From Saccharibacillus kuerlensis DSM 22868 (lineage in GTDB: Bacteria > Bacillota > Bacilli > Paenibacillales > Paenibacillaceae): 54,160 nt of DNA. The notes beneath the pieces were generated by a model, which was not told the DNA's origin, did not search any database, and saw only the letters and a program-made list of their open reading frames with translations. Below, piece by piece: positions 15,044 to 34,350 of the stretch. The stretch covers positions 1-54,160 of the forward strand of contig NZ_KB899302.1 of the NCBI RefSeq assembly GCF_000378145.1, written 5' to 3'. Each line of letters starts with the position of its first letter. Within the stretch, counting starts at the first letter, position 1. Made by a program: the position numbers and the translations under genes.

Positions 15044-16479
<1,436 letters not shown>

Positions 16480-16509
16480 AACGCAGCCTTTTCCCAAAAA
16501 AATCCCCCG

Positions 16510-16539
16510 TTGACAAGGCTGAAATGGTATTGATATAAT
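16510..16539 (+). promoter_or_regulatory. veg promoter, upstream copy
   Basis: TTGACA, 18 bases, TATAAT: both hexamers are perfect sigma-A consensus. Confidence 0.85.
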
Positions 16540-16551
16540 GATTAATTCAAC

Positions 16552-16580
16552 TTGACAAGAACCTCTCAAAATGTTACAAT
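16552..16580 (+). promoter_or_regulatory. veg promoter, downstream copy
   Basis: TTGACA, 17 bases, TACAAT, starting 13 bases after the first promoter; the layout resembles the strong tandem veg promoters of B. subtilis. Confidence 0.9.
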
Positions 16581-16609
16581 TGAGTGTATGAGAGAGGTGG
16601 TTGAGAAGA

Positions 16610-16888
16610 ATGGCAAATCAAACGCTATCGGATATCAAACGCAGTCTCGACGCTCATGTAGGACATCGTATCATGCTCCGTGCCAATGGAGGCCGGCGCA
16701 AGACGGTTGAGCAAACCGGAGTCCTCGAAGGAACTTACCCGGCGGTATTTACCGTCATGTTGGAAGAAGAGGCCGAACATGCTTCAGGCCGTGTATCGTA
16801 TAGTTATGCTGATGTTTTGACCGAGACGGTTGAGCTTTCGCTTGTAGAAGACGATTCGGCAACCCCGATCGCCTATGCCAGCGTCTGA
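16610..16888 (+). CDS. veg: Veg protein
   Basis: A 92-residue cytoplasmic protein; in B. subtilis Veg promotes biofilm matrix gene expression through the SinR system. The family core SDIKRSLD (~6-13), ANGGRRKT (~27-34) and SYSYADVLTETVEL are intact. The ATG at 16610 (MANQTL) is chosen because GAGAGGTGG lies nine bases upstream. It is driven by two consensus promoters and closed by a hairpin, so it is a monocistronic, highly expressed unit. The small spore protein gene sspF that follows veg in Bacillus is absent. Confidence 0.95.
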   Translation: MANQTLSDIKRSLDAHVGHRIMLRANGGRRKTVEQTGVLEGTYPAVFTVMLEEEAEHASGRVSYSYADVLTETVELSLVEDDSATPIAYASV

Positions 16889-16904
16889 TCAGCACGTTTT
16901 CTAA

Positions 16905-16940
16905 GAAGGCGGTTTTCGCTTACGCGAAGGCCGCCTTTGT
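16905..16940 (+). terminator. veg terminator
   Basis: AAGGCGG and CCGCCTT, with TTCGC / GCGAA inside, form a strong stem; the tail TTTGTTCGTTCTT is only moderately T-rich. Confidence 0.75.
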
Positions 16941-17065
16941 TCGTTCTTCTGGAGACTGTTCAACAGCATGGAAATAGACTTCGTATCGGATTTTGCATAT
17001 AATAGCAGAAGTCATTTAGAGAGGGCAGCCGGAATTCCGGCCAGAATGCAGGGGCGGTGGAAAGC

Positions 17066-17920
17066 TTGTACATTTACGAAAAAGCGCCAGCGAAGATCAA
17101 TTTGATGCTGGACGTTTTACATAAACGCAATGATGGATTTCACGAAGTGGAAATGATCATGACGATGGTCGATCTGGCAGATCGACTGACACTTAGCAAT
17201 TCCGGTACCGGCCGGATTTCATTATCAAGTCAATCGGGATATATTCCGCTGGATGATAAAAACTTGGCAGTAAAAGCGGCTCGTTTGCTTAAGCAGCGCT
17301 TTGGTGTCAACCGCGGTGTGCATATGCATCTGGAAAAGCGTATTCCGGTAGCAGCTGGCCTGGCAGGCGGAAGCAGTGATGCCGCTGCCGCTCTGCGCGG
17401 CTTGAACCGGCTGTGGGAGCTTGGGCTGTCTATGACGGAGCTGGAGGAGCTGGGAGCGGAGCTCGGTTCTGACGTTCCGTTCTGTGTACGCGGAGGAACC
17501 GCGCTGGCCACAGGCCGGGGCGAGAAGCTGGAAACGATCCCGAATCCGCCGCGCTGCTGGGTAGTCCTGGCGAAGCCGCCAATTAACGTGTCGACAGCGG
17601 ACGTATACGGCGGTCTGAAGGCGGCAGAGATCGCGGTACATCCTTCAGCTTCGGGCATGAGAGAAGCGCTGGAGCAGGGGTCGTTCAACCGCGTCTGCGC
17701 CGGTCTCGGGAATGTCCTGGAGGATGTGACCTTGAATCTGTATCCGGATGTGCGGAGGCTCAAAGAAATCATGGAGCAACTGGGCTCGGACGGTGTATTA
17801 ATGTCCGGGAGCGGCCCGACAGTATTCGGACTTGTGGCGAAGGAAGAGAAAGCCAAAAGAATCTGTAACGGGCTTAGAGGCTTCTGCGAAGAAGTATATG
17901 CGGTAAGAACGCTGGGATAG
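17066..17920 (+). CDS. ispE: 4-(cytidine 5'-diphospho)-2-C-methyl-D-erythritol kinase
   Basis: GHMP kinase of the MEP isoprenoid pathway, phosphorylating CDP-methylerythritol. The 284-residue protein has the ATP-binding loop [15 protein letters not shown] (~93-107) and the C-terminal [10 protein letters not shown]. The TTG at 17066 is chosen: the protein then begins (M)[12 protein letters not shown], aligning with B. subtilis IspE, and GGGGCGGTG lies seven bases upstream. A GTG at 17057 sits inside that site. It presumably has its own promoter in the 125 bases after the veg terminator. Confidence 0.95.
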
Positions 17921-18016
17921 AGGCGGCATAGGCAAAATCAGCGCTCCACCGAAAATCGTATTCGATGTTTGATAAAATAGATCAGAAGCGTTTAAGAATT
18001 TTAGGGAAAGAAAACC

Positions 18017-18046
18017 AGCCGGTGGAATAACTCCGGCTTATTTTTC
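18017..18046 (+). terminator. ispE terminator
   Basis: AGCCGG and CCGGCT around a 10-base loop, followed by TATTTTTCTT. Confidence 0.8.
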
Positions 18047-18051
18047 TTGAT

Positions 18052-18138
18052 TTTGTTCGCTTTTGGGATATTTTATCAAACATTCACATATACAAATACG
18101 TACAAAAGTGATATATTTTTTATAAAATATTCGGATTT
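18052..18138 (+). promoter_or_regulatory. purR control region with candidate PurBoxes
   Basis: ATATTCGGATTT (18127-18138) is the reverse of a CCGAA-type PurBox, and TTGTTCGCTTTT (18053-18064) is a weaker similar box. In B. subtilis PurR represses its own gene through such boxes. The AT-rich DNA between holds no clear -35/-10 pair. Confidence 0.4.
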
Positions 18139-18153
18139 AGCGAGGAAACCCTA

Positions 18154-18981
18154 GTGAAAAAATTAAAACGTAGTGCACGTTTAGTAGAGTTAACCCAGTT
18201 TCTGCTGGCTAGACCGCATTCTCTTATTCCGCTGACGACGTTTGCGGAACGATACGGAGCGGCGAAATCTTCGATCAGTGAGGATCTGGCTATTATCAAG
18301 GAAGTGTTCGAAGAAGAAGGTATGGGCGAGCTGCAGACTCTGGCAGGAGCCGCAGGCGGAGTGAAATATATTCCGCGCGTATCCAACGAGAGAGCGCTTG
18401 GGATCATCAATGACCTTTGTGTCAAGCTGGAGGAACCGGGACGCATTCTGCCGGGCGGTTACTTGTACATGTCCGACCTGCTCGGAAAGCCGCATCTCGT
18501 TAATGAGATCGGAGATATTTTCGCGACCATTTTCGGCGGGCAAAATATCGATGTCGTGATGACGGTCGAAACGAAAGGGATTCCGATTGCCTACGCGACA
18601 GGAGCCAAGCTGAATCTGCCGGTCGTGCTTGTACGTCGGGATCATCAAGTTACGGAAGGGTCTGCGGTGAGTATCAATTACGTTTCCGGTTCGAACAAAA
18701 GTCTTCATACCATGACCTTGTCGCGGCGGGCGATGAAGGAAAAGTCTCGCGTGCTGATCGTAGATGACTTCATGAAAGCGGGCGGAACGGTGCGCGGCAT
18801 GATCGATCTGCTTGCCGAATTCGATGCCGAAGTTGCTGGCGTTGGCGTACTGCTGGATTCGGGTACGGTAGACTCTGAAGAGCGGCTGTTCGAAGACTAT
18901 GTGTCGCTCGTTACACTGGAAACGGTGGACCCGAAAAGCCGCGCTATCGGCGTCAAGCCCGGCAATTATTTCGAAAAATAA
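18154..18981 (+). CDS. purR: Purine operon repressor PurR
   Basis: A 275-residue repressor of purine synthesis genes. The N-terminal ~70 residues form a winged helix; the rest is a phosphoribosyltransferase-like domain that senses PRPP and ppGpp rather than catalysing. The PRPP-binding motif VLIVDDFMKAGGT is present at ~203-215. It starts with GTG after GAGGAAA. B. subtilis has ridA (yabJ) directly after purR; here the gap to spoVG has no such gene. Confidence 0.95.
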   Translation: MKKLKRSARLVELTQFLLARPHSLIPLTTFAERYGAAKSSISEDLAIIKEVFEEEGMGELQTLAGAAGGVKYIPRVSNERALGIINDLCVKLEEPGRILPGGYLYMSDLLGKPHLVNEIGDIFATIFGGQNIDVVMTVETKGIPIAYATGAKLNLPVVLVRRDHQVTEGSAVSINYVSGSNKSLHTMTLSRRAMKEKSRVLIVDDFMKAGGTVRGMIDLLAEFDAEVAGVGVLLDSGTVDSEERLFEDYVSLVTLETVDPKSRAIGVKPGNYFEK

Positions 18982-19007
18982 AAATGAAGTATACGCTTTA
19001 CTCTTCG

Positions 19008-19043
19008 AGAAGACGCTTTCCTACCGGGAAGGCGTCTTCTATT
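19008..19043 (+). terminator. purR terminator
   Basis: AGAAGACGC pairs perfectly with GCGTCTTCT; the tail ATTACG is weak in T. Confidence 0.65.
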
Positions 19044-19108
19044 ACGTTATGGCGATCTGCTGCCGAATATATATATGAGGAAAATTCTGTTCAAAAGGAA
19101 ACCAAGTG

Positions 19109-19183
19109 AGGAGGTCTCTTATAAAATTGATGCTTGAACTGAAACCTTTTCGGAAATAGTCCGTATTGAAAACGAGTTTCAGT
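19109..19183 (+). other. Strong ribosome site with a ten-codon frame before spoVG
   Basis: AGGAGGT (19109-19115) is a near-perfect ribosome site but the frame that follows (TTG 19127 or ATG 19130) stops at 19159 after MLELKPFRK. An inverted repeat ACTGAAAC / GTTTCAGT (19138-19145, 19176-19183) spans it. It could be a leader peptide or a remnant of a lost gene. Confidence 0.3.
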
Positions 19184-19262
19184 GGAAAATGGCGCTATCT
19201 GTCGTTTCCGTTAATAAAAGCAAAAAAAATCCGAAATTCTGATATTTGCGTCAGTAAAAAGA

Positions 19263-19287
19263 AGGATTTCGAACACCGGTGTGGAAT
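19263..19287 (+). promoter_or_regulatory. spoVG sigma-H-type promoter
   Basis: AGGATTT, 14 bases, GAAT: this fits the sigma-H consensus and closely resembles the B. subtilis spoVG promoter (AGGATTT ... GGAAT). Confidence 0.75.
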
Positions 19288-19327
19288 AATACACCAAGTC
19301 TTCTAATGATAAAGGTGGTGAACTTAA

Positions 19328-19624
<297 letters not shown>

Positions 19625-19647
19625 GTCACACATAATTAGGTGGAACA

Positions 19648-19680
19648 GGGAGCCGGAGGATTCGGCTCCCTTTTCTTTTT
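19648..19680 (+). terminator. spoVG terminator
   Basis: GGGAGCCG and CGGCTCCC followed by TTTTCTTTTT. Confidence 0.9.
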
Positions 19681-19712
19681 GCCTGGAATGCGATATATTC
19701 AGTATAGTAAAT

Positions 19713-19736
19713 ACTTATCGCGAACTTTCGAGATAA
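19713..19736 (+). repeat. Hairpin at the start of the glmU leader
   Basis: CTTATC-CGAA and TTCG-GATAAG pair across a short loop with one mismatched base, upstream of the small frame at 19769. Confidence 0.5.
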
Positions 19737-19768
19737 GGATAAATTCGCATTTGTGAAGGTCGCGGATA

Positions 19769-19843
19769 TGCTTCGCGGTCGGATGAATGACATAGACGCA
19801 GCAGCAGACGCAGAAATAGCGGCCGAAGGGCCCAACCCATAAT
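19769..19843 (+). CDS. Possible 24-residue leader peptide upstream of glmU
   Basis: ATG at 19769 opens MLRGRMNDIDAAADAEIAAE and ends GPNP at 19843. GAAGGT lies about nine bases before the ATG. The frame stays open further left to an in-frame TAA just before 19710. Its stop codon overlaps a nine-base-pair hairpin (19842-19872) located just before the glmU ribosome site, the layout expected of a translation-coupled leader. It could also be chance. Confidence 0.3.
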
Positions 19844-19872
19844 AACCGTCGCCTCCGCAGGCAACGGTTATT
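19842..19872 (+). promoter_or_regulatory. Hairpin overlapping the leader-frame stop, before glmU
   Basis: AATAACCGT pairs perfectly with ACGGTTATT around a 13-base loop. The T-run after it is short, so it may be a regulatory stem rather than a terminator. Confidence 0.5.
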
Positions 19873-19900
19873 TCCGGGTAAATAAAGAGGAGGCAGAGCA

Positions 19901-22422: not shown

Positions 22423-22450
22423 GATTTCTTAGCGCGATAAAGCCTACCGC

Positions 22451-22484
22451 GGGTTACGCCTCCTTCCCGTAAGGAGCGTAACCC
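22451..22484. terminator. Hairpin after prs
   Basis: GGGTTACGC-TCCTT pairs with AAGGA-GCGTAACCC, a 14-bp stem, followed by TTCTC. A second small hairpin (CCTCTC / GAGAGG) follows near 22501-22520. It probably ends prs transcription and may also face the converging small gene. Confidence 0.6.
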
Positions 22485-22535
22485 TTCTCGGCGTGAACGC
22501 CTCCTCTCGATTGGAGAGGGAAAAGAAAGCGGCGC

Positions 22536-22736
22536 TCAATACCCGGGGCGAGAAAGAAAGACGTATCTGCCGCGGTGATAGAGGGAGTGTCCAATTTCGA
22601 TAAAACTGTCGTGAATGCCGGTAACCAATCCGATGTCGACGGGCACGTCCTGCTGATAGACTTCTACGGGAACCTTGGCATTCATGTGATCGTGAAAATG
22701 ACGGTTATCTTTGAGTGTGGCTCCAAATTCGTACAT
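22536..22736 (-). CDS. Small conserved-looking hypothetical protein
   Basis: A 66-residue protein on the strand opposite its neighbours, in the prs-pth gap. AAAGGAG lies 12 bases before the ATG at 22736, and its codon usage is like that of surrounding genes. It contains VPVDIGLVTGIHDSFIEIG and ends with a basic, aromatic tail. I recognise no domain; it could be a small beta-rich protein. No strong promoter was found on its strand. It replaces the ctc gene found here in Bacillus. Confidence 0.6.
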   Translation of the reverse strand: MYEFGATLKDNRHFHDHMNAKVPVEVYQQDVPVDIGLVTGIHDSFIEIGHSLYHRGRYVFLSRPGY

Positions 22737-22788
22737 GTCGTTCTACAGCTCCTTTGCTGAACTAACTGGCAGGGGAATCGTAACAAAA

Positions 22789-22817
22789 TTGCGTACCCTG
22801 TGCTTTATCCCTATATT
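22789..22817 (+). promoter_or_regulatory. Candidate pth promoter
   Basis: TTGCGT, 17 bases, TATATT, about 55 bases before the pth start. Confidence 0.55.
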
Positions 22818-22871
22818 GTAACAAAAATACGCGTCAGAACCATAAAGATTGCGGGTAAGGAGTCGTAACGA

Positions 22872-23432
22872 ATGAAATGGATCGTAGGGCTGGGGAATCC
22901 CGGCAAAAATTATGAGCACACACGTCATAATGTCGGCTTTATGGCTTTGGATCATCTTGCAGAGAAACACGGCATTTCAATTACCCAAAACAAGTGCAAA
23001 GCGCTGATCGGCGAAGGCATGATCGGACGTGAAAAGGTTGTATTAATCAAACCGATGACATTTATGAATCTGTCGGGCGAATCCGTTCGTGCTTATATGG
23101 ACTATTATAAGGTCGAATTGAAAGATCTTATTGTCGTTTACGACGATTTGGATACAGAGATCGGCCGTATCCGGCTTCGTTATCAGGGAAGTGCCGGCGG
23201 TCACAATGGAATCAAGTCAATTATTCAACATACGGGTACGCAGACCTTTGATCGTATACGTATGGGCATTTCCCGTCCGCAAAACGGTATGGCCGTTGTC
23301 GATTATGTGCTGGCCCCTTTTGCTAAAAAAGAGCAGGATCTTTTGAAAGAAATGATCGAAAAAACATGCGATGCGCTCGAACACAGTCTGGACCATACGT
23401 TTGAACAGACGATGGCCCGGTTCAATGGATAA
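22872..23432 (+). CDS. pth: Peptidyl-tRNA hydrolase
   Basis: Releases peptides from stalled peptidyl-tRNA so the tRNA can be reused. The 186-residue protein has GLGNPGKNYEHTRHNVGF (~6-23) with the catalytic His in TRHNVG, the FMNLSGESV segment (~64-72), and the YDDLD and GSAGGHNG motifs. A GTAAGGAG ribosome site precedes the ATG. The fin (anti-sigma-F) gene usually found between pth and mfd in spore formers is absent; the gap is only 92 bases. Confidence 0.96.
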   Translation: MKWIVGLGNPGKNYEHTRHNVGFMALDHLAEKHGISITQNKCKALIGEGMIGREKVVLIKPMTFMNLSGESVRAYMDYYKVELKDLIVVYDDLDTEIGRIRLRYQGSAGGHNGIKSIIQHTGTQTFDRIRMGISRPQNGMAVVDYVLAPFAKKEQDLLKEMIEKTCDALEHSLDHTFEQTMARFNG

Positions 23433-23524
23433 TAACGAAGGCCTTTGTCGCCGTACGTCGAGGCGCACCGTAAGGACTTTGTTCGGTATCTTTTTAATTT
23501 ACAAGCATAAGAGAGGTGCCCCTT

Positions 23525-26500
23525 TTGTTAAACGCGCTTATCAAGGAAGTTGCCCGGGATCACGACTTCGTCTCCATCAAGGACGCCGTCTTAGCAGGGA
23601 TGAAGGAGCAGCTGATCGCGGGCTTGTCGGGTTCGGCACGTCAATTAATGATGGCGGGTCTGCATCAGGAGTTGGAACGTCCGCTGCTTGTCGTTACGCA
23701 TAATATTTTTTCCGCACAAAAGATTGCGGATGATCTTCAGGAAGCGCTTCCCGAAGGTCAGGTACTATTTTATCCCGCCAATGAATTGGTAGCGGCGGAA
23801 TCCGCAATATCCAGCCCTGAAACGATCGCCCAGCGAATCGAAGTGCTGACTCGCTGTGCAGACGGTTTCAAGGGCGTTCTTGTCGTTCCGTTCTCCGGAC
23901 TGCGCAGATTCGTGCCCGATCCGGATGCTATCCGATCGGCTCAGTTTACGCTGGAAGAGGGCGGAACGCTGGATCTGGAATCGTTCCTGCTTCGTATGAT
24001 CGAGCTCGGTTACACGCGCGTTGAACGTGTAGAGACGCGGGGTGAGATGAGCGTTCGCGGCGGAATCATCGACTTTTTCCCAATGACTTCCTCGCTTGCT
24101 TATCGGGTAGAGCTGTTCGACGATGAGGTCGACTCAATCCGTACATTCGATCCGGAAGATCAGCGTTCGATCGATAAAGTCAAAAGCGTTCGCATTCTGC
24201 CGAGCCGTGAGCTTGTAGCCAGCGGTGAACGGATGCAAAAAGCAGCCGATGATGCAGCGGCGCTATTAGAAAAACAATTAGAACGTATGACCGACCGCAA
24301 AGCGAAGGCAGCCATGCAGCAGGAAATCGGCCGGGAGATCGAGATGCTGCGTCAGCAGATCCATTTCCCGGAAATGTACAAGTACGTGTCGCTGATTTAT
24401 CCTGAGCGTCGCACGCTGTATGACTATATGCCGGAGAACACGCTGCTGCTGATGGACGAGCCTGCTCGCCTGCTCGATACGGCTGCTCAGCTCGAACGCG
24501 ACGAAGCGGAGTGGAATATTCATCTGCTGCAGAGCGGAAAAAGCCTGCCGGATCTGCCGCTTGCGCTCGAAGGGGATTCGGCGGTATACCAACGTCCGTT
24601 CCAGACGTTGTTCCTGTCGCTGTTCGTGCGCCAGATTCCTCGCACGCATCCGGGGCAGGTAGTCAATGTCGTCAGCCGGACCATGCAGGATTTCCACGGT
24701 CAAATGAATGTGCTGAAAGCCGAGATGGAGCGCTGGAAAAAATCCAACATGCGCGTAATTATGCTGGCCGGCGACAATGAACGGGCTGATCGCATCCGTC
24801 AGGTATTGGAAGACTACGAGATTGAAACGCCAGAAATTATGCACGGTCATCTGCAGGGAGGCTTCGAGCTTCCTTCTGCGCATCTCGTCGTCATTACGGA
24901 AGGCGAACTGTTTGCCCAGAAGCAGCGCAAGGTACGCAAAAGCAGCTCTACCAAGCAGATCGACAATGCCGAACGTATTAAAAGTTATACCGAGCTGAAG
25001 GTCGGCGATTATGTCGTGCATCAAAATCACGGCATCGGTAAATACTTGGGTATCGGTACGCTCGAAGTCGGCGGCATCCACAAAGATTACATGCATATCA
25101 TGTACGCCGGCGGAGACAAGCTGTCCGTACCAATTGAACAGATCGATTTGATTCAGAAATATGTCGGCGCCGAAGACAAAGAGCCAAAAGTATACAAGCT
25201 GGGCGGCAACGAGTGGACGAGAGTCAAAACCAAAGTCCGGTCTTCTGTGCAGGATATCGCCGATGACCTGATCAAGCTGTATGCGGAGCGGCAAGCTTCC
25301 GCAGGTTACAGCTTCGACAAAGATACGCCGGAGCAGAACGAATTTGAAAATACGTTCCCTTACGAAGAAACCCGCGACCAGCTGCGAGCAATCGAAGAGA
25401 TCAAGGGCGACATGGAAATGACCCGCCCAATGGATCGGCTGCTGTGTGGAGACGTTGGCTACGGCAAAACGGAAGTTGCAATCCGTGCGGCGTTCAAGGC
25501 GGCGATTGAAGGTAAACAGGTCGCTATTCTCGTACCGACAACGATTCTGGCGCAGCAGCACTACGAGACATTCAAAGAGCGTTTTGAAGGTTATCCGTTC
25601 AATATTGGTGTTCTCAGCCGTTTCCGCTCGCGCAAGGAACAGAACGAAACGATCAAGGGTGTTAAGCAGGGTACAATCGACGTCATTATCGGTACGCATC
25701 GCATCCTGTCACAGGATCTGGTATTCAAAGATCTGGGTCTGCTGATCGTCGATGAAGAGCAGCGGTTTGGCGTGACGCATAAGGAAAAGCTGAAGCGTCT
25801 TAAGACCAATGTGGACGTGCTGACGCTGACTGCGACTCCGATTCCGCGTACGCTGCACATGTCCATGTTGGGCGTTCGTGACTTGTCGGTTATCGAGACA
25901 CCGCCGGAAAATCGCTTTCCGGTACAGACTTATGTTGTCGAATACAGCCCGACACTTGTTCGCGAAGCGATCGAGCGCGAGCTGGCGCGCGGCGGACAGG
26001 TATATTACCTGTACAACCGTGTGCAGGGCATTCACGAGAAAGCGGCGGAAATTGCGGATCTTGTGCCGGATGCACGCGTCAGCGTAGGACACGGTCAGAT
26101 GAGCGAGCAGGAGCTCGAGCGCACCATTCTCGATTTCCTGGAAGGCGAATCGGACGTACTGGTTAGCACGAGCATCATCGAGACGGGCGTAGACATTCCG
26201 AACGTTAACACCTTGATTGTGCATGACGCGGACAAGATGGGCCTGTCGCAGCTGTATCAGATGCGTGGTCGCGTTGGCCGTTCCAACCGGATCGCTTACG
26301 CTTATTTCTCTTACCAAAAAGACAAAGTGCTGACCGAAGTTGCCGAGAAGCGCCTTCAGTCGATCAAAGAGTTCACGGAACTCGGTTCCGGCTTCAAGAT
26401 CGCAATGAGAGACTTGTCGATCCGCGGGGCGGGCAATTTGCTCGGAGCGGAACAATCCGGCTTCATTGCTTCGGTCGGCTTCGATCTGTATTCGCAAATG

Positions 26501-27058
26501 TTGGCCGAAGAAATTCAGAAGCGCAAAATTTCGATGCTGGGCGAAGCGCCGGCGGAAGACAAGCACTGGAGCACAATGATCGACCTGTCGATTGATGCTT
26601 ATCTGCCTTCGGATTATATCTACGACAGCATTCAGAAGATCGAGATTTATAAAAAGGTTGCGGCAGCGACTGTATTCGAAGAAGTCCTCGAATTGGAAGA
26701 CGAACTGCTGGATCGGTTCGGCGAACTGCCGGAAGCGGTTGTGCGTCTGATGCAGGTCGCGCGTTTCAAAATTTACGGCCGACACTGCGGAATTGAGAGC
26801 ATTTCCAGAAAGGGAGACGACTTCGTCGTTACTTTCTACGAAGGTCAGGAAAACGCGGCAGAACCGGCCAAACTTGCGCAAATTGGAAATCGATTCGAAA
26901 GCAGTGTACAATTTAAGCAGGGCACGCCTCTTGCGTTTACGATTAAGGGTAAGAGTCTGCCGGAATCCGAGCGTCTCGAGATGCTCGAGCGGGTTCTGGA
27001 AGCCCTCCAAGAAGCGTTCAAATCGAAGGGAGAACTTCATGATGCAGTTAAATCATAA
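23525..27058 (+). CDS. mfd: Transcription-repair coupling factor
   Basis: A 1177-residue DNA translocase that removes RNA polymerase stalled at DNA lesions and recruits UvrA. Order of parts: a UvrB-like N-terminal region (to ~400), the RNA-polymerase-interaction domain around VGDYVVHQNHGIGKYLG (~496-512), then helicase motors with Walker A GDVGYGKTE (~645), the DEEQ box in LIVDEEQRFG (~745), and TATPIPRTLHMS, followed by the TRCF C-terminal domain. The TTG at 23525 (MLNALIKEV) is chosen with AGAGGTG upstream; a GTG at 23516 lies in that site. The 3' end overlaps the next gene by 20 bases. Confidence 0.96.
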   Translation: MLNALIKEVARDHDFVSIKDAVLAGMKEQLIAGLSGSARQLMMAGLHQELERPLLVVTHNIFSAQKIADDLQEALPEGQVLFYPANELVAAESAISSPETIAQRIEVLTRCADGFKGVLVVPFSGLRRFVPDPDAIRSAQFTLEEGGTLDLESFLLRMIELGYTRVERVETRGEMSVRGGIIDFFPMTSSLAYRVELFDDEVDSIRTFDPEDQRSIDKVKSVRILPSRELVASGERMQKAADDAAALLEKQLERMTDRKAKAAMQQEIGREIEMLRQQIHFPEMYKYVSLIYPERRTLYDYMPENTLLLMDEPARLLDTAAQLERDEAEWNIHLLQSGKSLPDLPLALEGDSAVYQRPFQTLFLSLFVRQIPRTHPGQVVNVVSRTMQDFHGQMNVLKAEMERWKKSNMRVIMLAGDNERADRIRQVLEDYEIETPEIMHGHLQGGFELPSAHLVVITEGELFAQKQRKVRKSSSTKQIDNAERIKSYTELKVGDYVVHQNHGIGKYLGIGTLEVGGIHKDYMHIMYAGGDKLSVPIEQIDLIQKYVGAEDKEPKVYKLGGNEWTRVKTKVRSSVQDIADDLIKLYAERQASAGYSFDKDTPEQNEFENTFPYEETRDQLRAIEEIKGDMEMTRPMDRLLCGDVGYGKTEVAIRAAFKAAIEGKQVAILVPTTILAQQHYETFKERFEGYPFNIGVLSRFRSRKEQNETIKGVKQGTIDVIIGTHRILSQDLVFKDLGLLIVDEEQRFGVTHKEKLKRLKTNVDVLTLTATPIPRTLHMSMLGVRDLSVIETPPENRFPVQTYVVEYSPTLVREAIERELARGGQVYYLYNRVQGIHEKAAEIADLVPDARVSVGHGQMSEQELERTILDFLEGESDVLVSTSIIETGVDIPNVNTLIVHDADKMGLSQLYQMRGRVGRSNRIAYAYFSYQKDKVLTEVAEKRLQSIKEFTELGSGFKIAMRDLSIRGAGNLLGAEQSGFIASVGFDLYSQMLAEEIQKRKISMLGEAPAEDKHWSTMIDLSIDAYLPSDYIYDSIQKIEIYKKVAAATVFEEVLELEDELLDRFGELPEAVVRLMQVARFKIYGRHCGIESISRKGDDFVVTFYEGQENAAEPAKLAQIGNRFESSVQFKQGTPLAFTIKGKSLPESERLEMLERVLEALQEAFKSKGELHDAVKS

Positions 27059-28217
27059 AAAATGGGGAAAATTGGCATCGCTCGGCGCAGTTGCGGTATT
27101 GTCTTTTTCCGTGCTGGCCGCCTGCGGCGACAAAGCCGATAATCAAGCGGTGAATACCGACGAGCCGGCAGTAACCGATAACACTGCAGTGACCGACAAC
27201 AGCAAGGTATTGGCCACATATGACGGGGGAACGATTACAGAGGATCAATTCAATACCGAATTGAACGTTATGAAATTCCTGCAGCCTGCTTATGCGTCGT
27301 TGATGGACTCGAGCGATATCAAGAATTCCATGCTGGACCAGCAGATCGCTTACAGCTACCTGCAGGGCAAAGCAACGGATGAAGAGAAGAAGGAAGGCGC
27401 CAGCATGGCGGACGAGCAGATTAGTCAGCTGAAGGCTCAGGTCGATCAAGCCCAACTGGACGAGCTGCTGAAGGCGCAAAATATTACTGAGGCGGATCTG
27501 AAGGCTTACATGACCCAGGTTATGACCGCTGTACACTATATGTCCAATCAAGTAGCGGATGAAGACGTGCAGGAGGAATACGATACGAATAAAGAATCGT
27601 ATATCACTGCGGACGTTCGTCATATTTTGATCAACTTCACCGATCCGGAAGGCAACGAACGGACCGACGCCGAAACGCTGAAGCTGGCTAAAGAAGCCAA
27701 GGCCAGAGTTGATGGCGGCGAAGATTTTGCTAAAGTTGCCGAGGAAGTTTCGGAAGATCCGGGTTCGGCTTCGAACGGCGGACTGTACGAAAATGCTTCG
27801 GTCAATCAATGGGTTGAAGCTTTCAAAAAAGCAGCCTTGGAACAGGAAATTGGTGTAGTGAGCGATCCGGTTAAAACGGAATATGGTTACCACATCATCA
27901 AGGTTGAGGACAGAGCAGACACGCTGACGGATGAAGTGAAAGAGTCGGTTCGCCAGACTCTTGCGTCCAACAAGCTGAACGATTTCATGGAGAATGAACT
28001 GGAAGGTATCACGAAGAGCAAGGAAGAGTTTGCCGCTGATGAAGAGCCGGCAGCTGAAGGCACGGAAACTGCACCGACTGAAGGCACAGAAACCGTACCA
28101 GCCGAAGGAACTGAAGATGCTCCGGCTGAAGGAACAGACGGAGCCGATCAAGGCGCGGCACCTGACGCATCTGGTGATGCAGGCACGTCGACCGACACGA
28201 CAACAGACGGCAAGTAA
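27039..28217 (+). CDS. PrsA-like foldase lipoprotein (parvulin peptidyl-prolyl isomerase)
   Basis: A 392-residue membrane-anchored chaperone expected to help fold secreted proteins outside the cell. The signal ends in the lipobox VLAAC (Cys ~29). A SurA-type N-terminal helical region spans ~45-185, the parvulin PPIase domain ~188-291 (DVRHILINF to YGYHIIKVED), and the tail (~325-392) is acidic, built of repeats like EGTETAPT / EGTEDAPA. AAGGGAG lies six bases before ATG 27039; ATG 27042 is equally possible. Its start overlaps mfd, implying translational coupling. In B. subtilis a foldase gene (yacD) sits after hslO, where none is found here. Confidence 0.9.
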   Translation: MMQLNHKKWGKLASLGAVAVLSFSVLAACGDKADNQAVNTDEPAVTDNTAVTDNSKVLATYDGGTITEDQFNTELNVMKFLQPAYASLMDSSDIKNSMLDQQIAYSYLQGKATDEEKKEGASMADEQISQLKAQVDQAQLDELLKAQNITEADLKAYMTQVMTAVHYMSNQVADEDVQEEYDTNKESYITADVRHILINFTDPEGNERTDAETLKLAKEAKARVDGGEDFAKVAEEVSEDPGSASNGGLYENASVNQWVEAFKKAALEQEIGVVSDPVKTEYGYHIIKVEDRADTLTDEVKESVRQTLASNKLNDFMENELEGITKSKEEFAADEEPAAEGTETAPTEGTETVPAEGTEDAPAEGTDGADQGAAPDASGDAGTSTDTTTDGK

Positions 28218-28238
28218 GCCAAGAATATCCGACAGAAG

Positions 28239-28292
28239 CAAAAACGGCCGGTTTGTTTCGTGTGCATATGCACCGGACGAGCCGGCCATTTC
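28239..28292 (+). terminator. Stem-loop after the foldase gene
   Basis: ACGGCCGG and CCGGCC, with GTGCATATGCAC inside, form a long stem without a T-run. Confidence 0.45.
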
Positions 28293-28332
28293 TGGAATTC
28301 TGAGCGCCCGGCATTTATTATAGACGGATAGG

Positions 28333-28363
28333 AAATAGCGCGGATTTCACGCGCTATTTTTTT
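28333..28363 (+). terminator. Intrinsic terminator before yabM
   Basis: AAATAGCGCG pairs perfectly with CGCGCTATTT and is followed by TTTT. It closes the mfd-foldase unit. The spoVT gene expected in this gap is absent. Confidence 0.85.
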
Positions 28364-28396
28364 GGGTCCAAAAGGGTAGGGAAAGGAGGACGCGGT

Positions 28397-30052
28397 TTGA
28401 AAACGTCCGCTTCATCGGGATTGTTGAGAGGTGCTTTTATTCTCGGATTTGCAGCGATCTTATCCAAGTTGATCGGTACGCTGCAGAAAATCCCGCTGCA
28501 AAATATCGGTGGAGACAGCGTGTTTGGTATCTACACGACTGTTTACTCGTTCTATACGTTTCTAGCGGTATTTGTAACGACCGCCCTTCCGGTTGCGATC
28601 TCAAAATATGTAGCTGAACGTACTGCCGGTGCGGACGAGAAAGGCGTACGTACCGTACTGTGGGCAGGAATGTTGACCGCATGCGGCGCTGGTCTTCTGA
28701 TGGCGCTGGGCATGTGGTTCTGCGCACCGCTGTTGTCTGACTGGATCGGCAGTGAGCACACGCTGCTGCCGATCCGAGCCGTGTCGCTCGCCCTGCTCGT
28801 CGTTCCGCCTATGGCTGCGCTAAGAGGTTTCTTTCAAGGTCTGCAGCAGGCACTGCCTACGGCCGTATCGCAAATATCGGAACAGGTGCTTCGAGTAGGC
28901 CTCATGGTAGCGCTGCTGCTGACATTGAACGCGACAGGCGCATCGGATGAACGCATCGCGGCCGGAGCGGCGCTCGGTTCCTTAGGCGGTGGTCTGGCCG
29001 GTCTGAGTGTCATGCTGCTGTTCTGGCGGCGCTACAATCGTATCCGTAAGGCGAAAAAGTTCGGTTTTGCGGATGAAGTTCGAGCGAGCGCTGAAGCGGT
29101 ATCGGGGCCGCAGGTTCGTACTGTGGGCGTTTGGGTTAAACGGCTGTTGATCTATGCCCTGCCTGTATTCGTCGGTTCATTGTCTCAACCCCTGCTGGGA
29201 TTGGTCGATACGCTGACTGTACCGCGGCTTCTTCAAGATGCAGGTTGGAATGACTTGGCTTCGATGGAGCAGTTCGGTGTCTATAACCGAGGTATTCCGC
29301 TCGTGCAAATCGTGTTCATGCTGGCAACCTCATTGTCTATGCTGCTGCTGCCGGCAATAGCTGATGCGAAGGCACGCGGTGAAGAAGAAAGAATTGCTGT
29401 GTCGACAAGTGTTGCGCTGCGCTGGCTCTGGATGCTTGGACTGACAGCCGCTGCCGGACTGGCTGTTCTGGCTGCTCCGGTCAATATTATGCTGTATGCG
29501 GACACCGAAGGAACAACTGCGCTGCGTTGGACCGCCTTTTCCGCTGTAGGCGGCACGCTGGGCATCGTCTCAGCCTCGCTTCTTCAAGGAATGGGCGCGG
29601 TCCGGGCCCCCGCCTTGTTCCTGCTTGTCTCAGCCTTATTGAAGCTGTTGCTTAATCTACTGCTGATTCCGCATATGGGCATTTCTGGCGCTGCGCTGGC
29701 CGGCGCCGTATCTTACCTGGCCGCCGCACTGTTCGGCGTCCTGCTGCTCGCCCGTCTGACGGGGCTGCGCGGCCGTGTCAGCCGTACGATTCTTCAGCCC
29801 CTGCTGCTGGCTGGGCTGACGGCGCTGGCTGCTTATGCAGCCAGCCTGCTGTGCAGCGGGCTGCTGTCCGCTGCCGGGCTCAGCGGCCGTATAGGTGCGC
29901 TGCTGACGAGCGTTACCGGCGTAGCTGCGGGTGTCATTGCCTTTGCCGTCGCGCTCGTCTATACCCGTGCGGTCTCGGATGCGGAGCTGTCCGCACTTCC
30001 CGGCGGTGCGAAACTCACTGCCCTGGCACGGCGTATGCGGCGCGAAGTCTAG
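28397..30052 (+). CDS. yabM: MurJ/SpoVB-type polysaccharide flippase (YabM)
   Basis: A 551-residue multi-pass membrane protein of the MATE/MurJ-like (MVF) superfamily, predicted to move lipid-linked wall or polysaccharide precursors across the membrane. It opens with GAFILGFAAILSKLIGTLQK and has about 14 hydrophobic segments. B. subtilis YabM (ShoA) is the counterpart at this position and SpoVB is a relative; the substrate is unknown. TTG 28397 follows AAAGGAGG. Base composition of the last 400 bases is richer in G+C than its neighbours. Confidence 0.87.
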   Translation: MKTSASSGLLRGAFILGFAAILSKLIGTLQKIPLQNIGGDSVFGIYTTVYSFYTFLAVFVTTALPVAISKYVAERTAGADEKGVRTVLWAGMLTACGAGLLMALGMWFCAPLLSDWIGSEHTLLPIRAVSLALLVVPPMAALRGFFQGLQQALPTAVSQISEQVLRVGLMVALLLTLNATGASDERIAAGAALGSLGGGLAGLSVMLLFWRRYNRIRKAKKFGFADEVRASAEAVSGPQVRTVGVWVKRLLIYALPVFVGSLSQPLLGLVDTLTVPRLLQDAGWNDLASMEQFGVYNRGIPLVQIVFMLATSLSMLLLPAIADAKARGEEERIAVSTSVALRWLWMLGLTAAAGLAVLAAPVNIMLYADTEGTTALRWTAFSAVGGTLGIVSASLLQGMGAVRAPALFLLVSALLKLLLNLLLIPHMGISGAALAGAVSYLAAALFGVLLLARLTGLRGRVSRTILQPLLLAGLTALAAYAASLLCSGLLSAAGLSGRIGALLTSVTGVAAGVIAFAVALVYTRAVSDAELSALPGGAKLTALARRMRREV

Positions 30053-30117: not shown

Positions 30118-30168
30118 GTATCCTGCGGACCGATCATGTTTTTCGATCGGGCTGAGCTTGCAGGATCA
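30118..30168. repeat. Nested inverted repeat between yabM and mazG
   Basis: The outer arms ATCCTGC (30120-30126) and GCAGGAT (30160-30166) enclose the inner arms CCGATC and GATCGG. No T-run follows; it may be a weak terminator or a cruciform. The rest of the 240-base gap shows nothing else. Confidence 0.5.
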
Positions 30169-30292
30169 AGAAGAGGTTTGAATTTCTTTTTTTGAATGCG
30201 GGAACGTATGTGCGTGTTTGGGATTCGCAATTCACCGAAACCCGTGATATAGTGGTAAAATGCGAGGTGCAGCGGAAGGAGAGGAATCGGCA

Positions 30293-31771
30293 ATGAGTAC
30301 AGGAATTACGGTTGTCGGGCTTGGTTCGGGAGATCCCGATCAGCTGACGTTGGGCATATGGAAAATTCTTCAGGGAGCGAGCCGGATTTATGTGCGAACG
30401 CAGGAACATCCGGTTATGAAACGCATCGCCGAAGAGGGAATATCTTTTGAATCGTTCGACTCCGTGTACGAAGATAACGGTTCATTCGGCGATGTATACG
30501 AGAGTATCGCCCGCAGGCTGATCGAGCTGGCGGCCGGAAGCGAACTTATCTATGCTCTGCCGGGTCATCCGATGGTGGCTGAGAAGACAGTGCTTCTGCT
30601 GCGCGAGTATGCAGCAGAAGCAGGAGTTCCTCTGAAGGTGCTGGGCGGGGAGAGTTTCCTGGATCAGGCGTTTGTTCGACTCGGTTTCGATCCGATTGAA
30701 GGGTTCCAGCTTTTGGATTCTTCGGACGTCAATGCGGAAAGTCTTCGCCCTTCCCTGCATACGCTGATCGGTCAAGTGTACGATTCGCTGACCGCTTCCG
30801 AGGTTAAACTCGGATTGATGGAAGTCTATCCCGACGATCATCCAGTTATTGTAGGCCATGCGCTTGGAGTAGAGGGAGAAGAGCAAATTGTGAAGGTTCC
30901 TCTATACGAGATTGATCGGCTGGAAGGCTACGGCAATCTGTCGCTGGTCTACATACCGCGGAGCGAAGAAGATTCTCTGCGAGCCGGCAGCTTTGCGAGG
31001 CTGCACGAGATCGTCGGAATTCTGCGCAGTCCAGGCGGCTGTCCATGGGACATGGAGCAGACACACGCTTCGATTCGCAAAAATTTGATCGAAGAAACGT
31101 ATGAAGTGCTGGAGACGATCGATGAAGACGATCCCGACCATATGCGCGAAGAGCTGGGCGACCTGCTGCTGCAGATCATGCTGCATTCCCGTATGGAAGA
31201 GGAGGTCGGCACGTTCAATGTCTACGACGTAATTCGCGGGTTGAACGAGAAGCTGATTTTCCGTCATCCGCACGTCTTCGGCGACAAGTCTGCGGACAAC
31301 GCCGAGGAAGCGCTGAAGAGTTGGGACGCCATGAAGTCCGAAGAGAAAAAGCTCAAGGGAGAGTCCAAGTCCGAAGCTTCTCTGTTGGACGGCGTTCCAA
31401 AAGATCTGCCTGCCCTTATGAAGGCGTACAAGCTGCAGAAGAAGGCAGCGAAAGCCGGCTTCGACTGGGATAAGATTGAAGATGTGCTGGCTAAAATCGA
31501 GGAAGAGCTGGAAGAGATCCGTGCCGGATTGGCCGAGGGGGATGACTCCGAGGCACTTAAGCTCGAACTGGGCGATCTTCTGTTTTCCGCAGTCAATGCG
31601 GCCCGATTCTTGAATGCCGATCCGGAAGAAGCGCTGTCTCTTGTCAATGACAAGTTCCGCCGCCGTTTCCGCTACATCGAAGACAGGCTGCGCGAAAAAG
31701 GAAGCTCGCCGCAAACCAGCACGCTTGCGGAAATGGATGCCCTTTGGAACGAAGCCAAGGCGGCAGAATAA
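30293..31771 (+). CDS. yabN: YabN: tetrapyrrole-methylase domain fused to MazG nucleotide pyrophosphohydrolase
   Basis: A 492-residue fusion. The N-terminal ~220 residues form a tetrapyrrole methylase-like domain (VVGLGSGDPDQLTLG at ~6-20; LPGHPMVAE near 90). The C-terminal half carries two MazG modules; the first has PGGCPWDMEQTH (~247-258) and the metal-binding EETYE ... EELGDLLLQ pattern. MazG cleaves NTPs to NMP and PPi, cleaning damaged or excess nucleotides. The ATG at 30293 follows GGAAGGAGAGG; an in-frame ATG at 30260 lies upstream of that site. Confidence 0.93.
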   Translation: MSTGITVVGLGSGDPDQLTLGIWKILQGASRIYVRTQEHPVMKRIAEEGISFESFDSVYEDNGSFGDVYESIARRLIELAAGSELIYALPGHPMVAEKTVLLLREYAAEAGVPLKVLGGESFLDQAFVRLGFDPIEGFQLLDSSDVNAESLRPSLHTLIGQVYDSLTASEVKLGLMEVYPDDHPVIVGHALGVEGEEQIVKVPLYEIDRLEGYGNLSLVYIPRSEEDSLRAGSFARLHEIVGILRSPGGCPWDMEQTHASIRKNLIEETYEVLETIDEDDPDHMREELGDLLLQIMLHSRMEEEVGTFNVYDVIRGLNEKLIFRHPHVFGDKSADNAEEALKSWDAMKSEEKKLKGESKSEASLLDGVPKDLPALMKAYKLQKKAAKAGFDWDKIEDVLAKIEEELEEIRAGLAEGDDSEALKLELGDLLFSAVNAARFLNADPEEALSLVNDKFRRRFRYIEDRLREKGSSPQTSTLAEMDALWNEAKAAE

Positions 31772-32175
31772 ACAGCCGATTGTTCCGAAACCAAACGCGC
31801 AGCAAAAGACCAGGTCGGGCCGATATTTGCGATCATGGCGTACTGCATGAGCACACAAAATTTGCCATACGTTCGTTCGCGAAAGAGGAATCTGCGTTAT
31901 TATCCAGAATATGAGAATACAGCGCAGGTTGACGTACGAGCTATAAGCAGCCGACTTCGAATAAGCGGCAAGCCCGGACATTTCGGTCCTGCCGGAGCCT
32001 TGATTTCGAAGAAGGATTCCAATTACGGATAACCGCGGCAGCACAGACAATTTCGTGCTCTGCTTATCATTATTATTCAGCGTCTCGCTTTCGGTGAGGC
32101 CTGCTCGGATTTTACCCGGCAGCCGGAGCCGAAGCAAGAAAACGCGATTTTAAAATCCCGGGAGGAATGAAACTA
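31772..32175. other. Intergenic region before hup
   Basis: About 400 bases with no convincing gene. A weak 65-codon frame (31835-32032) lacks a ribosome site and has no family resemblance. A bulged hairpin (GCAGCAC / GTGCTCTGC, ~32038-32065) and a CGTCTCGC / GTGAGGC stem (~32080-32100) lie upstream of hup. A hup promoter probably lies here, but no confident -35/-10 pair is visible. Confidence 0.5.
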
Positions 32176-32448
32176 ATGAATAAAACCGAACTGATCAACA
32201 GCATTGCAGAAAAAAGTGGAGTAGGCAAAAAAGAAGTTGAAGCCGTATTGAACGGTTTCATGGACGGCGTAACCGAAGCTCTGGCAAGCGGAGATAAGGT
32301 TCAGCTGATCGGTTTCGGTACGTTCGAAACTCGTAAGCGTGCTGGCCGCACTGGTCGTAACCCGCAAACCGGCGAGCCAATCACTATTGCCGAGTCTAGC
32401 GTTCCTGCATTCAAAGCGGGCAACAAACTCAAAGACGCGGTTAAGTAA
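32176..32448 (+). CDS. hup: HU family DNA-binding protein
   Basis: A 90-residue histone-like protein that bends and compacts DNA as a homodimer. MNKTELINSIAEKSG opens the family; the signature IGFGTFETRKRAGRTGRNPQ (~42-61) and the terminal PAFKAGNKLKDAVK are intact. The ATG at 32176 is chosen because it matches known HU N-termini and GGGAGGA lies nine bases upstream; an ATG at 32167 directly abuts that site. rqcP follows two bases after the stop. In Bacillus hbs is elsewhere. Confidence 0.97.
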   Translation: MNKTELINSIAEKSGVGKKEVEAVLNGFMDGVTEALASGDKVQLIGFGTFETRKRAGRTGRNPQTGEPITIAESSVPAFKAGNKLKDAVK

Positions 32449-32450
32449 TC

Positions 32451-32729
32451 ATGCGTGTCGATAAATTCCTGAAAGTGTCCAGGCTTATCAAGCGGCGTAC
32501 TGTAGCGAAGGACGTGTCCGAGCAGGGCCGTGTTCTGATCAACGGCCGCGAAGCCAAGCCAAGCGCTTCGGTGAAAGTCGGCGACGAAATTACTGTACAG
32601 TTCGGCCAGAAGCTTGTTACCGTTCGGGTCGAACGAATCGCCGACACGACCCGCAAAGACGAGGCTGCAGGCATGTATACCGTTGTGAAGGAAGAACCTC
32701 TTCCGAGAGAAGATGGGTTTAATTTCTAA
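32451..32729 (+). CDS. rqcP: RqcP (YabO) S4-domain ribosome quality-control factor
   Basis: A 92-residue S4 RNA-binding protein (MRVDKFLKVSRLIKRRTVAK). RqcP binds stalled 50S-peptidyl-tRNA complexes together with RqcH and supports poly-alanine tailing. It starts two bases after the hup stop, without an obvious ribosome site of its own, so it is probably translationally coupled to hup. The yabP and yabQ sporulation genes that follow in spore formers are missing. Confidence 0.93.
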   Translation: MRVDKFLKVSRLIKRRTVAKDVSEQGRVLINGREAKPSASVKVGDEITVQFGQKLVTVRVERIADTTRKDEAAGMYTVVKEEPLPREDGFNF

Positions 32730-32767
32730 CGTCCGATTGGCTGTAAGACTCGCATCAGCCGAATTAT

Positions 32768-32799
32768 GGTGTTTCCGTTTCGACGGAAGCGCCTTTTTT
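32768..32799 (+). terminator. Terminator after rqcP
   Basis: GGTGTTTCCGT and ACGGAAGCGCC form the stem, followed by TTTTTT. Confidence 0.85.
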
Positions 32800-32880
32800 G
32801 TCATAAATTTAATTTTTTCGCGTCATAATGCCTTTTTTTGTGTTAATGTTTAAGATAGCTGAACAAGTTAGGTAAGAGAG

Positions 32881-32914
32881 ACTATTGACTGTGTCCCTAC
32901 ACGTCAATAATAGT
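32881..32914. promoter_or_regulatory. Palindrome / candidate promoter upstream of divIC
   Basis: ACTATTGAC (32881-32889) mirrors GTCAATAATAGT (32903-32914). The same DNA holds TTGACT, 17 bases, TAATAG, a possible sigma-A promoter overlapping the palindrome. The rest of the 318-base gap is AT-rich without a gene. Confidence 0.4.
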
Positions 32915-33047
32915 TCCGATGCTCTATTTATCTTGTCGGCCTGCTTACCGATAAAGAGTTGAAGCGTCTACAGATTTCGTTTTCAAGGGGAGTTTGTCCC
33001 TGCATACTTACATAACAGCCGGCAGCAGGCCGGAGAAGGAGGGTTCC

Positions 33048-33440
33048 ATGAGAGCGACTTCCGCAGCAACCAAACCGAATAGGCAGCATCCTGATCAATC
33101 ACCTAAGACTACCCGGACCGAGGTTCGGCGCACTTCTTCGAATCGGCAGCAAAGCGGCAAGAAGCGTCTCCGTTTATGGGCCGTCCTCATGATTTCTCTG
33201 TTCGGGTGGGCCGGATATACGTTAATCGGCCAATCTTCGGCTATTGCAGAAAAAACCGCACGTTTGGAAGAAGTGCAAGCGGTCAAAGCGGGAAGCGAAA
33301 CGAAGTTAAATGAAATTCAAGCAGAGATCAAGCGTCTACAGGATCCTGAATATATTCAGCAAATCGCTCGTAAAGAGTACAATATGTTCAAACCGGAAGA
33401 GATCCCGATCCGGGTTACCGGAGAAGGTGGAGGACAGTAG
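33048..33440 (+). CDS. divIC: Septum formation initiator DivIC
   Basis: A 130-residue bitopic division protein that works with DivIB and FtsL at the septum. A basic cytoplasmic tail of ~42 residues precedes one membrane segment (LWAVLMISLFGWAGYTLIG, ~43-61) and an external coiled coil (~66-100) ending in the conserved YIQQIARKEYNMFKPEEIP. The ATG at 33048 follows AAGGAGG. The cytoplasmic tail is unusually rich in Gln, Thr, Arg and Ser. Confidence 0.93.
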   Translation: MRATSAATKPNRQHPDQSPKTTRTEVRRTSSNRQQSGKKRLRLWAVLMISLFGWAGYTLIGQSSAIAEKTARLEEVQAVKAGSETKLNEIQAEIKRLQDPEYIQQIARKEYNMFKPEEIPIRVTGEGGGQ

Positions 33441-33566
33441 CTTTTATGCAGTTTTGCGCGGTTTTGTTTGTTGACCGCGGATTGCGCTTCCGTTATAATC
33501 AAATCACCGCAGACCCGAATTTGACTGATTCGGCTGTATATTTTTAAGGGAGGATCATTTTATTCT

Positions 33567-34127
33567 ATGGCAATTGAAGTGGGCACCAAATTAGAGGGCA
33601 AAGTGACAGGCATCACGCATTTTGGAGCATTTGTGGATTTGTCCGGAGGTGTCACGGGTCTCGTTCACATTTCGGAAATCGCTGACAACTATGTAAAAGA
33701 TGTGAATGATCACCTGAAGATTGGCGATATGGTGACAGTTAAAGTCATTAACGTCGACAAAGACGGCAAGATCGGATTGTCCATCAAGCAAACGGTGGAT
33801 CGGCCTGCCGGCTCTGCTCCTGCGCCATCTTCCCGTCCACCAAGACAAGACCGCGGTCCTAGCAGCGGCGGTAGTGGCGGCGGCGAACGGTTTAGTGGCG
33901 GTGGCGGTAGCGGCGGCGGTGGTGGATTCAACCGCGGCGGTAGCGGCGGTGGCAGACCTTCGAGACCCCCTGGCGGCGGTAAACCTGCATTCGGCAAGCC
34001 CGCATTCGGTAAGCCTACGTTCGATGATAAATTGTCCCGTTTCCTTAAGGACAGCGAAGAAAGAATTTCTTCGATCAAGAAAAACACGGAATCCAAGCGT
34101 GGAGGCCGTGGCGCCAAAAGATCGTAA
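33567..34127 (+). CDS. yabR: YabR S1-domain RNA-binding protein with glycine-rich tail
   Basis: A 186-residue protein. Residues 1-75 are one S1 domain (GTKLEGKVTGITHFGAFVDL ... GLSIKQTV), the general-stress YugI/YabR type that contacts RNA or the ribosome. Residues ~85-150 are a low-complexity Gly/Ser/Arg/Pro segment with GGSGGG blocks and PAFGKPAFGKPTF repeats. The C-terminal ~35 residues are charged, ending in RGGRGAKRS. B. subtilis YabR (128 residues) lacks such a long glycine tract. GGGAGGA lies about 14 bases before the ATG, a long spacing, but no better start exists. Confidence 0.9.
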   Translation: MAIEVGTKLEGKVTGITHFGAFVDLSGGVTGLVHISEIADNYVKDVNDHLKIGDMVTVKVINVDKDGKIGLSIKQTVDRPAGSAPAPSSRPPRQDRGPSSGGSGGGERFSGGGGSGGGGGFNRGGSGGGRPSRPPGGGKPAFGKPAFGKPTFDDKLSRFLKDSEERISSIKKNTESKRGGRGAKRS

Positions 34128-34141
34128 TTATAGCCTCAAAC

Positions 34142-34178
34142 ACCGCGAATGGCTCAGCTCAGCTGCTCGCGGTTTTTT
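34142..34178 (+). terminator. yabR terminator
   Basis: ACCGCGA and TCGCGGT followed by TTTTTT. Confidence 0.85.
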
Positions 34179-34232
34179 GCTTTGTACGTGAAGCCTTCAG
34201 CAAACGGCCTGCATCCTCCGATAAATACAAAG

Positions 34233-34280
34233 AACATCCTCGACCGAACTTCGCAAGAATGATGTTCGGTCAGGGACGTT
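34233..34280. repeat. Imperfect 17-base inverted repeat at the spoIIE-less junction
   Basis: The left arm 34233-34249 (ending GACCGAAC) and right arm 34264-34280 (starting GTTCGGTC) match in 14 of 17 positions across a 14-base loop. No T-run follows in either direction. It occupies the gap where spoIIE lies in related spore formers. Confidence 0.55.
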
Positions 34281-34350
34281 GTGATACACTGGTTGCGAAT
34301 GACGGATTTGGAATTTCGTCGGAATTGCACCGGAAAGGACGGGATGGCAG

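Follow-up and report, generated by a model that had tools for sequence, protein, structure and literature searches.

The window analysed here, a stretch of 54,160 nucleotides (nt) from Saccharibacillus kuerlensis DSM 22868 (contig NZ_KB899302.1, positions 1 to 54,160 of the forward strand), contains a segment from yaaO to tilS whose gene order is that of relatives, as judged both from profile matches and from an alignment with seven further contigs, and in which the places of the sporulation genes gin, yabG, sspF, fin, spoVT, yabP/yabQ and spoIIE-yabS are empty. Taken together with genome-wide searches and phylogeny, this indicates, with a probability of roughly 0.93, that the common ancestor of Saccharibacillus and the P. 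dauci/P. wulumuqiensis group lost sporulation once, through local deletions, and kept the Spo0B-Spo0A relay. Saccharibacillus and its close relatives are therefore probably unable to make spores. An earlier note, made from the sequence of this DNA, had already described the seven places as empty with their neighbours in order, and had proposed an asporogenous lineage within the Paenibacillaceae. Both claims are borne out, the former by the window gaps and the comparison loci, the latter by the absence of the genes throughout the genus and their presence in relatives.

Gene names were assigned from the best profile matches combined with position. For Veg, the foldase, YabM, the RqcP-like S4 protein, DivIC and YabT, the best NCBIfam model gives a score under its curated cut-off, so that their names lean on position. 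The empty yabG place (16480-16600, 121 nt) lies between rsmA (15586-16479) and veg, and the sspF place (16889-17056, 168 nt) between veg and ispE (17057-17920). Further along, the fin place (23433-23515) separates pth (22872-23432) from mfd (23516-27058); this gap is short and empty as the earlier note had described, although it measures 83 nt rather than 92, a length that depends on the choice of start codon. The spoVT place (28218-28396, 179 nt) lies between the foldase gene, which ends at 28217, and yabM (28397-30052), and the statement that only terminators occupy it was not confirmed, just one weak terminator-like match having been found there, on the reverse strand. The yabP and yabQ place (32730-32993, 264 nt) is found between rqcP (32451-32729) and divIC (32994-33440), and the spoIIE and yabS place (34128-34350, 223 nt) between yabR (33567-34127) and yabT. 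The gin (csfB) place, upstream of yaaO (1886-3538), was rightly called empty, no Gin open reading frame being present in the window, but it lies at 1772-1885 and thus outside the 16480-34350 segment in which it had been listed.

The junctions were compared across 80 named loci, seven of which form the clade (five Saccharibacillus, P. wulumuqiensis and P. dauci); a locus was omitted from the gap count of a junction when one of the neighbours was truncated or unaligned. The YabN protein of the window shares 84-88% identity with its counterparts in S. alkalitolerans, S. endophyticus, S. qingshengii, S. deserti and Saccharibacillus sp. O23; its identity to those of the 75 further loci, of which nearly all belong to Paenibacillus or Cohnella, is 60-70%. 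At four junctions, the clade and non-clade ranges are disjoint: 22-192 nt (n=7) versus 398-797 nt (n=56) for pth-mfd, 108-251 nt (n=7) versus 748-6846 nt (n=57) for foldase-yabM, 79-290 nt (n=7) versus 865-6407 nt (n=70) for rqcP-divIC, and 197-317 nt (n=7) versus 3686-6249 nt (n=56) for yabR-yabT. In the same line, a comparison of eight contigs, five from the clade (window included) and three from outside, gave 97-178 nt versus 1144-1227 nt for rsmA-veg and 146-211 nt versus 539-726 nt for veg-ispE. As to the control junctions, the ranges overlap for yabM-yabN, yabN-hu, divIC-yabR, yabT-tilS and tilS-hpt, and the hpt-ftsH gap is longer in the clade (106-228 nt, n=7, versus 24-107 nt, n=36).

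In P. sediminis, these places are filled by Gin (PF10764, 73.2 bits, at the gin place), YabG, an SspF-type small acid-soluble spore protein (SASP), Fin, SpoVT, YabP, YabQ and SpoIIE, with a VWA protein in place of yabS. A tblastn search of the junction open reading frames of P. sediminis and of a second genome (G020) against 30 empty junctions (six junctions in five contigs, with 60 nt of flank on each side) yielded no convincing remnant, no match falling below E 0.03. The best same-junction match, at pth-mfd (E 0.038), was rejected: its query, a reverse frame of 47 codons in P. sediminis, corresponds to no known gene.

Beyond the window, absence was assessed by six-frame searches of whole genomes with curated cut-offs, each of the SpoIIE, SASP, SpoIVA, SpoVT, Fin, YabG, YabP/YqfC and Gpr searches detecting B. 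subtilis as positive control. The 28 genome handles used for Spo0A, SpoVT, Fin, YabG and YabP/YqfC come down to 24 different genomes, of which 16 belong to the genus and eight lie outside it, G079, G080, G081 and G082 being duplicates of G012, G004, G008 and G013, as judged from Spo0A matches at the same coordinates. The genus as defined in the database includes P. wulumuqiensis (G012) and P. dauci (G004), its genomes range from 4.3 to 6.3 Mb, and the panel of 16 does not contain S. soli O16. None of the eight families exceeds its cut-off in the genus. For SpoIIE, 0/16 genus genomes score above it versus 61/63 others, and in the remaining two, G028 and G071, fragments are found; the best match to the SpoIIE model in the genus is of phosphatase type and reaches at most 56.3 bits, for a cut-off of 490.8. 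SASP are found in 0/16 genus genomes versus 23/23 others, SpoIVA in none of the 12 genus genomes searched versus 6/6 outside, and Fin, YabG, YabP/YqfC, Gpr and SpoVT each in 0/16 versus 8/8 outside. AbrB-type matches to the first part of the SpoVT model occur in all genomes searched for it. Relatives outside the clade carry sporulation genes.

In S. kuerlensis itself, no protein exceeds the SigE, SigF, SigG or SigK sporulation cut-off among the 26 classified of its 33 sigma region-4 matches. The classified ones comprise RpoD, a shorter RpoD-like protein, a FliA-type factor, a SigB-like protein scoring below its cut-off, extracytoplasmic function (ECF)-type factors, response regulators and some proteins without a strong match. 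As a side observation, this genome holds two RpoD-type sigma factors (L102 and L103), RpoD with 386 residues and a second protein of 312 residues whose match to the RpoD model begins at model position 83 and scores 544 bits for a cut-off of 572. The genome search that the earlier note had suggested hence returns nothing over cut-off for spoIIE, spoIVA, gpr or SigE/F/G/K in the data searched, and does return spo0A. The five genes that could have moved away from their usual places, spoIIE, spoVT, yabP, yabG and fin, were not found in the rest of the genome, yabQ, gin and yabS being judged at the junctions only.

Besides the seven places in the window, further empty places occur on two other contigs. 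recN is directly followed by spo0A in S. kuerlensis and P. wulumuqiensis, whereas SpoIVB (523 bits) lies between the two in G023, and no SpoIVB match was found near recN-spo0A in the first two genomes in this locus comparison. On contig C12, a 50-kb stretch compared with P. sediminis contains no match to SpoIIM, SpoIIAA, SpoIIAB, SigF, SpoVAA and their neighbours, nor to a pair of genes that we take, from their position, to be spmA and spmB, and the genes flanking the missing spoIIM and spoIIA loci stay colinear along it. Likewise, the M23 and M50 peptidase genes are missing from the SpoIVFA/SpoIVFB place, between genes that are presumably minD and rng. The earlier description of a clean, repeated loss rather than a rearrangement is thereby upheld as regards clean in-place loss, in the window and at these further loci, and refined in that, on the tree, the trait was lost once, through many separate deletions.

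The upstream regulators present a different picture from the spore genes. Spo0A is full-length in 16/16 genus genomes (386-408 bits with TIGR02875, cut-off 200), with its receiver Asp motif and the motifs of its DNA-binding domain kept in all of them. Spo0B, recognized by its SPOB_a domain and RHDWMN phosphotransfer His motif, is encoded no more than 1.5 kb away from obg in 24/24 genomes, including 16/16 in the genus. In the window, abrB (9790-10071, reverse strand, AbrB-type match) is preceded by a TGTCGAA motif at 10166-10172 on the reverse strand, with a second copy at 10361-10367; we take this heptamer to be a Spo0A box. At least one copy is present upstream of abrB in 8/8 contigs, and two in the approximately 340 bases upstream of the window abrB compare with about 0.06 expected at the shuffled rate. 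Across the whole window, the 15 copies for a shuffled mean of 10.2 are not a significant enrichment. The Spo0B-Spo0A relay may accordingly still control abrB, as these motifs suggest. In addition, SpoVG (19328-19624, forward strand, over its cut-off) and Veg (16601-16888, forward strand, 128.4 bits for a cut-off of 135) are intact. The earlier statement that spoVG, abrB, veg and yabT are kept thus holds for the first three; yabT is retained as well, but with an altered kinase catalytic loop in the clade.

Additional Spo0A copies of full length (354-359 bits for a cut-off of 200) occur in four of the 16 genus genomes, all in the P. dauci group, and are located at G001:C5:181736-182551, G004:C1:523520-524329, G012:C1:41810-42625, G010:C1:3628037-3628852 and G010:C2:25656-26447 (L166, L167, L237-L240), so that G010 holds three Spo0A copies in all. 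One of the extra copies lies on a 163-kb contig beside anti-restriction-type, DNA methyltransferase-type and other phage-type genes. According to the accessible part of PMC10294663, phage Spo0A homologues are devoid of a receiver domain, whereas the copy on the 163-kb contig has one.

That the conserved Spo0A and Spo0B are functionless relics on their way to loss is unlikely. The DNA-binding half of Spo0A does carry shared changes in the ten genomes of Saccharibacillus proper, as expected from such decay; in the six P. dauci-type genomes, this half is nearly that of relatives. The open Spo0A frames with both sets of motifs in every genus genome, the extra copies in four of them and the Spo0B phosphotransfer motif in all 16 speak against decay, whereas the tested spore genes are wholly gone.

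The yabT gene (34351-35274, forward strand) encodes a PrkT-like kinase that scores 178.1 bits with the PrkT/YabT model NF058632, below its curated cut-off of 280, and 44.2 bits with Pkinase. It shares with the known YabT its place beside tilS, a kinase domain and a C-terminal hydrophobic segment, and differs from it, besides the low score, by a His in place of the catalytic-loop Asn (CAC codon at 34798-34800, forward strand). In protein kinases, this Asn normally binds Mg2+. The loop sequence is GDLKPCH in Saccharibacillus and GDLKAEH in the P. dauci pair; among the 63 loci with a YabT match, the position is His in 7/7 clade loci, as in the window, and Asn in 55/56 others, the remaining one being unreadable. 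To judge from the residue concerned, the substitution may alter the activity of the kinase. As a shared derived trait, it fits a gene freed from a sporulation role. Going further, one may tentatively propose that rewiring turned the relay into a decision circuit for vegetative life only, with a DNA-binding half of Spo0A that diverged in Saccharibacillus, extra Spo0A copies that arose or were acquired in the P. dauci group, and YabT turned into an altered-metal kinase or a pseudokinase, although this extended version is more doubtful than not.

The number of losses was addressed with trees built from seven proteins of the segment (Mfd, YabN, Pth, Hpt, TilS, RqcP and HU), namely a FastTree phylogeny of 70 rows (the window and the 69 of the 80 loci with enough sequence) and an IQ-TREE phylogeny of 27 rows chosen from these by the analyst. 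In both, P. dauci and P. wulumuqiensis join Saccharibacillus with a support of 100, forming a sister branch that has lost sporulation too, and the empty junction state requires one change. Because this sister branch shares the loss, one event in the common ancestor suffices. Two independent losses, in Saccharibacillus and in the P. dauci group separately, would account for gap lengths that differ between the subclades and for subclade branches (0.36 and 0.32) longer than the shared stem (0.1). These gap lengths and long branches could also mean that deletions continued after the split and, given the joint placement, the lack of all listed families on both sides and the YabT Asn-to-His change common to them, a double loss appears quite unlikely.

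Under the single-loss reading, endospore formation would have disappeared once, in an ancestor shared by Saccharibacillus and the P. dauci/P. wulumuqiensis group, its genes being deleted locus by locus to leave short gaps between intact neighbours. The upstream relay would have been retained, as suggested by Spo0B and Spo0A at their ancestral loci with phosphotransfer His and receiver Asp motifs and by TGTCGAA near abrB. Phosphorylated Spo0A would by now serve only vegetative and transition-state control, via abrB and its targets, and YabT would persist with a His at the usual Mg2+-binding position, possibly with modified activity.

Several observations weigh against this reading. In what is available of PMC13209792, S. 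soli O16 (genome of 5.72 Mb in 25 contigs) is described as forming terminal round endospores, seen by phase contrast and malachite green staining, and the available text of PMC9867790 introduces Saccharibacillus as endospore-forming. The earlier note had named observed spores as evidence to the contrary; such spores are thus claimed in print, and these claims stand unreconciled with the gene evidence, which favours the loss. Furthermore, the sigma-factor classification of S. kuerlensis covers 26 of the 33 region-4 matches, L125 among the other seven looking AbrB-type, and that the Spo0A relay is working is something we infer. Finally, the reduction extends beyond spore genes: at the places described on the other contigs, a RodA-like gene and some others are also missing, and the ResA gene and two neighbours of P. 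sediminis (G083:C1:620634-624111) have no match in S. kuerlensis near G000:C12:127980-128072, a gap that may mean that genes for cytochrome c maturation were lost.

Since the pathway is missing on both sides of the clade, S. soli O16 is expected to lack it too. The bolder idea that its terminal endospores are genuine resting cells whose formation bypasses the canonical pathway is very improbable. The printed spore claims would also suit a rearrangement in which the sporulation genes moved elsewhere and the strain still sporulates, and the division of the S. kuerlensis draft (4.70 Mb) into 56 contigs would suit an artefact of assembly or sampling. Both have next to no chance of being correct, the former because six-frame searches that detect relatives and B. 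subtilis recover none of the tested families in the genus, the latter because the genome is 99.91% complete, continuous sequence bridges the junctions and the result is the same in 16 genus genomes, of which G002, G005 and G006 are single-contig assemblies.

No report of sporulation loss in this clade was found in the literature searched, which covered few subscription papers. A survey of sporulation genes by Galperin and co-workers, reportedly published in J. Bacteriol. in 2022, might cover Saccharibacillus. Neither Saccharibacillus nor dauci or wulumuqiensis is named in the available main text of the Paenibacillus survey PMC12826061. Sporulation loss with Spo0A kept is a known category: the accessible text of Galperin et al. 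2012 (PMC3533761), whose main text, in that portion, does not name Saccharibacillus, reports 30 Bacillota genomes with Spo0A but without widely conserved sporulation genes. The present case shares both features, is a clean one and conflicts with print; it differs from those genomes, as far as this text describes them, in concerning a whole clade within a family of spore formers, with conserved gene order and no SASP, SpoIVA, SpoIIE or Gpr. Multiple losses are also described in Mycoplasmatales and related orders (PMC10868615, in the part available), likewise lineages derived from spore-forming Bacilli; those are host-associated and reduced, whereas the genomes considered here are of 4.3-6.3 Mb and keep the Spo0B-Spo0A relay. 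The clade represents a natural, clade-wide sporulation knock-out inside the Paenibacillaceae, with spore-gene-bearing relatives at near-identical gene order, and lets the roles of Spo0A, Spo0B, SpoVG, Veg and YabT outside sporulation be asked. It also puts the published endospore descriptions of Saccharibacillus in doubt, and such claims need heat-resistance and dipicolinate tests.

Some minor features of the window may be added. The prs-pth gap (22423-22871) measures 406-475 nt in five clade contigs versus 95 and 122 nt in two others, and contains a reverse-strand frame (22536-22736, 66 codons in the window) that seems to be conserved across the clade and to which Pfam assigns no family. Only one element reached the gathering threshold in an Rfam search of the window, a cyclic di-AMP riboswitch (RF00379, 12830-13060, 75.1 bits for a gathering score of 38) upstream of a G5/3D-domain gene (13293-14867). 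Lastly, a gene for an HD-domain protein (10412-11722), divergent from abrB and located between yabC and tatD, is aligned in all seven comparison contigs.

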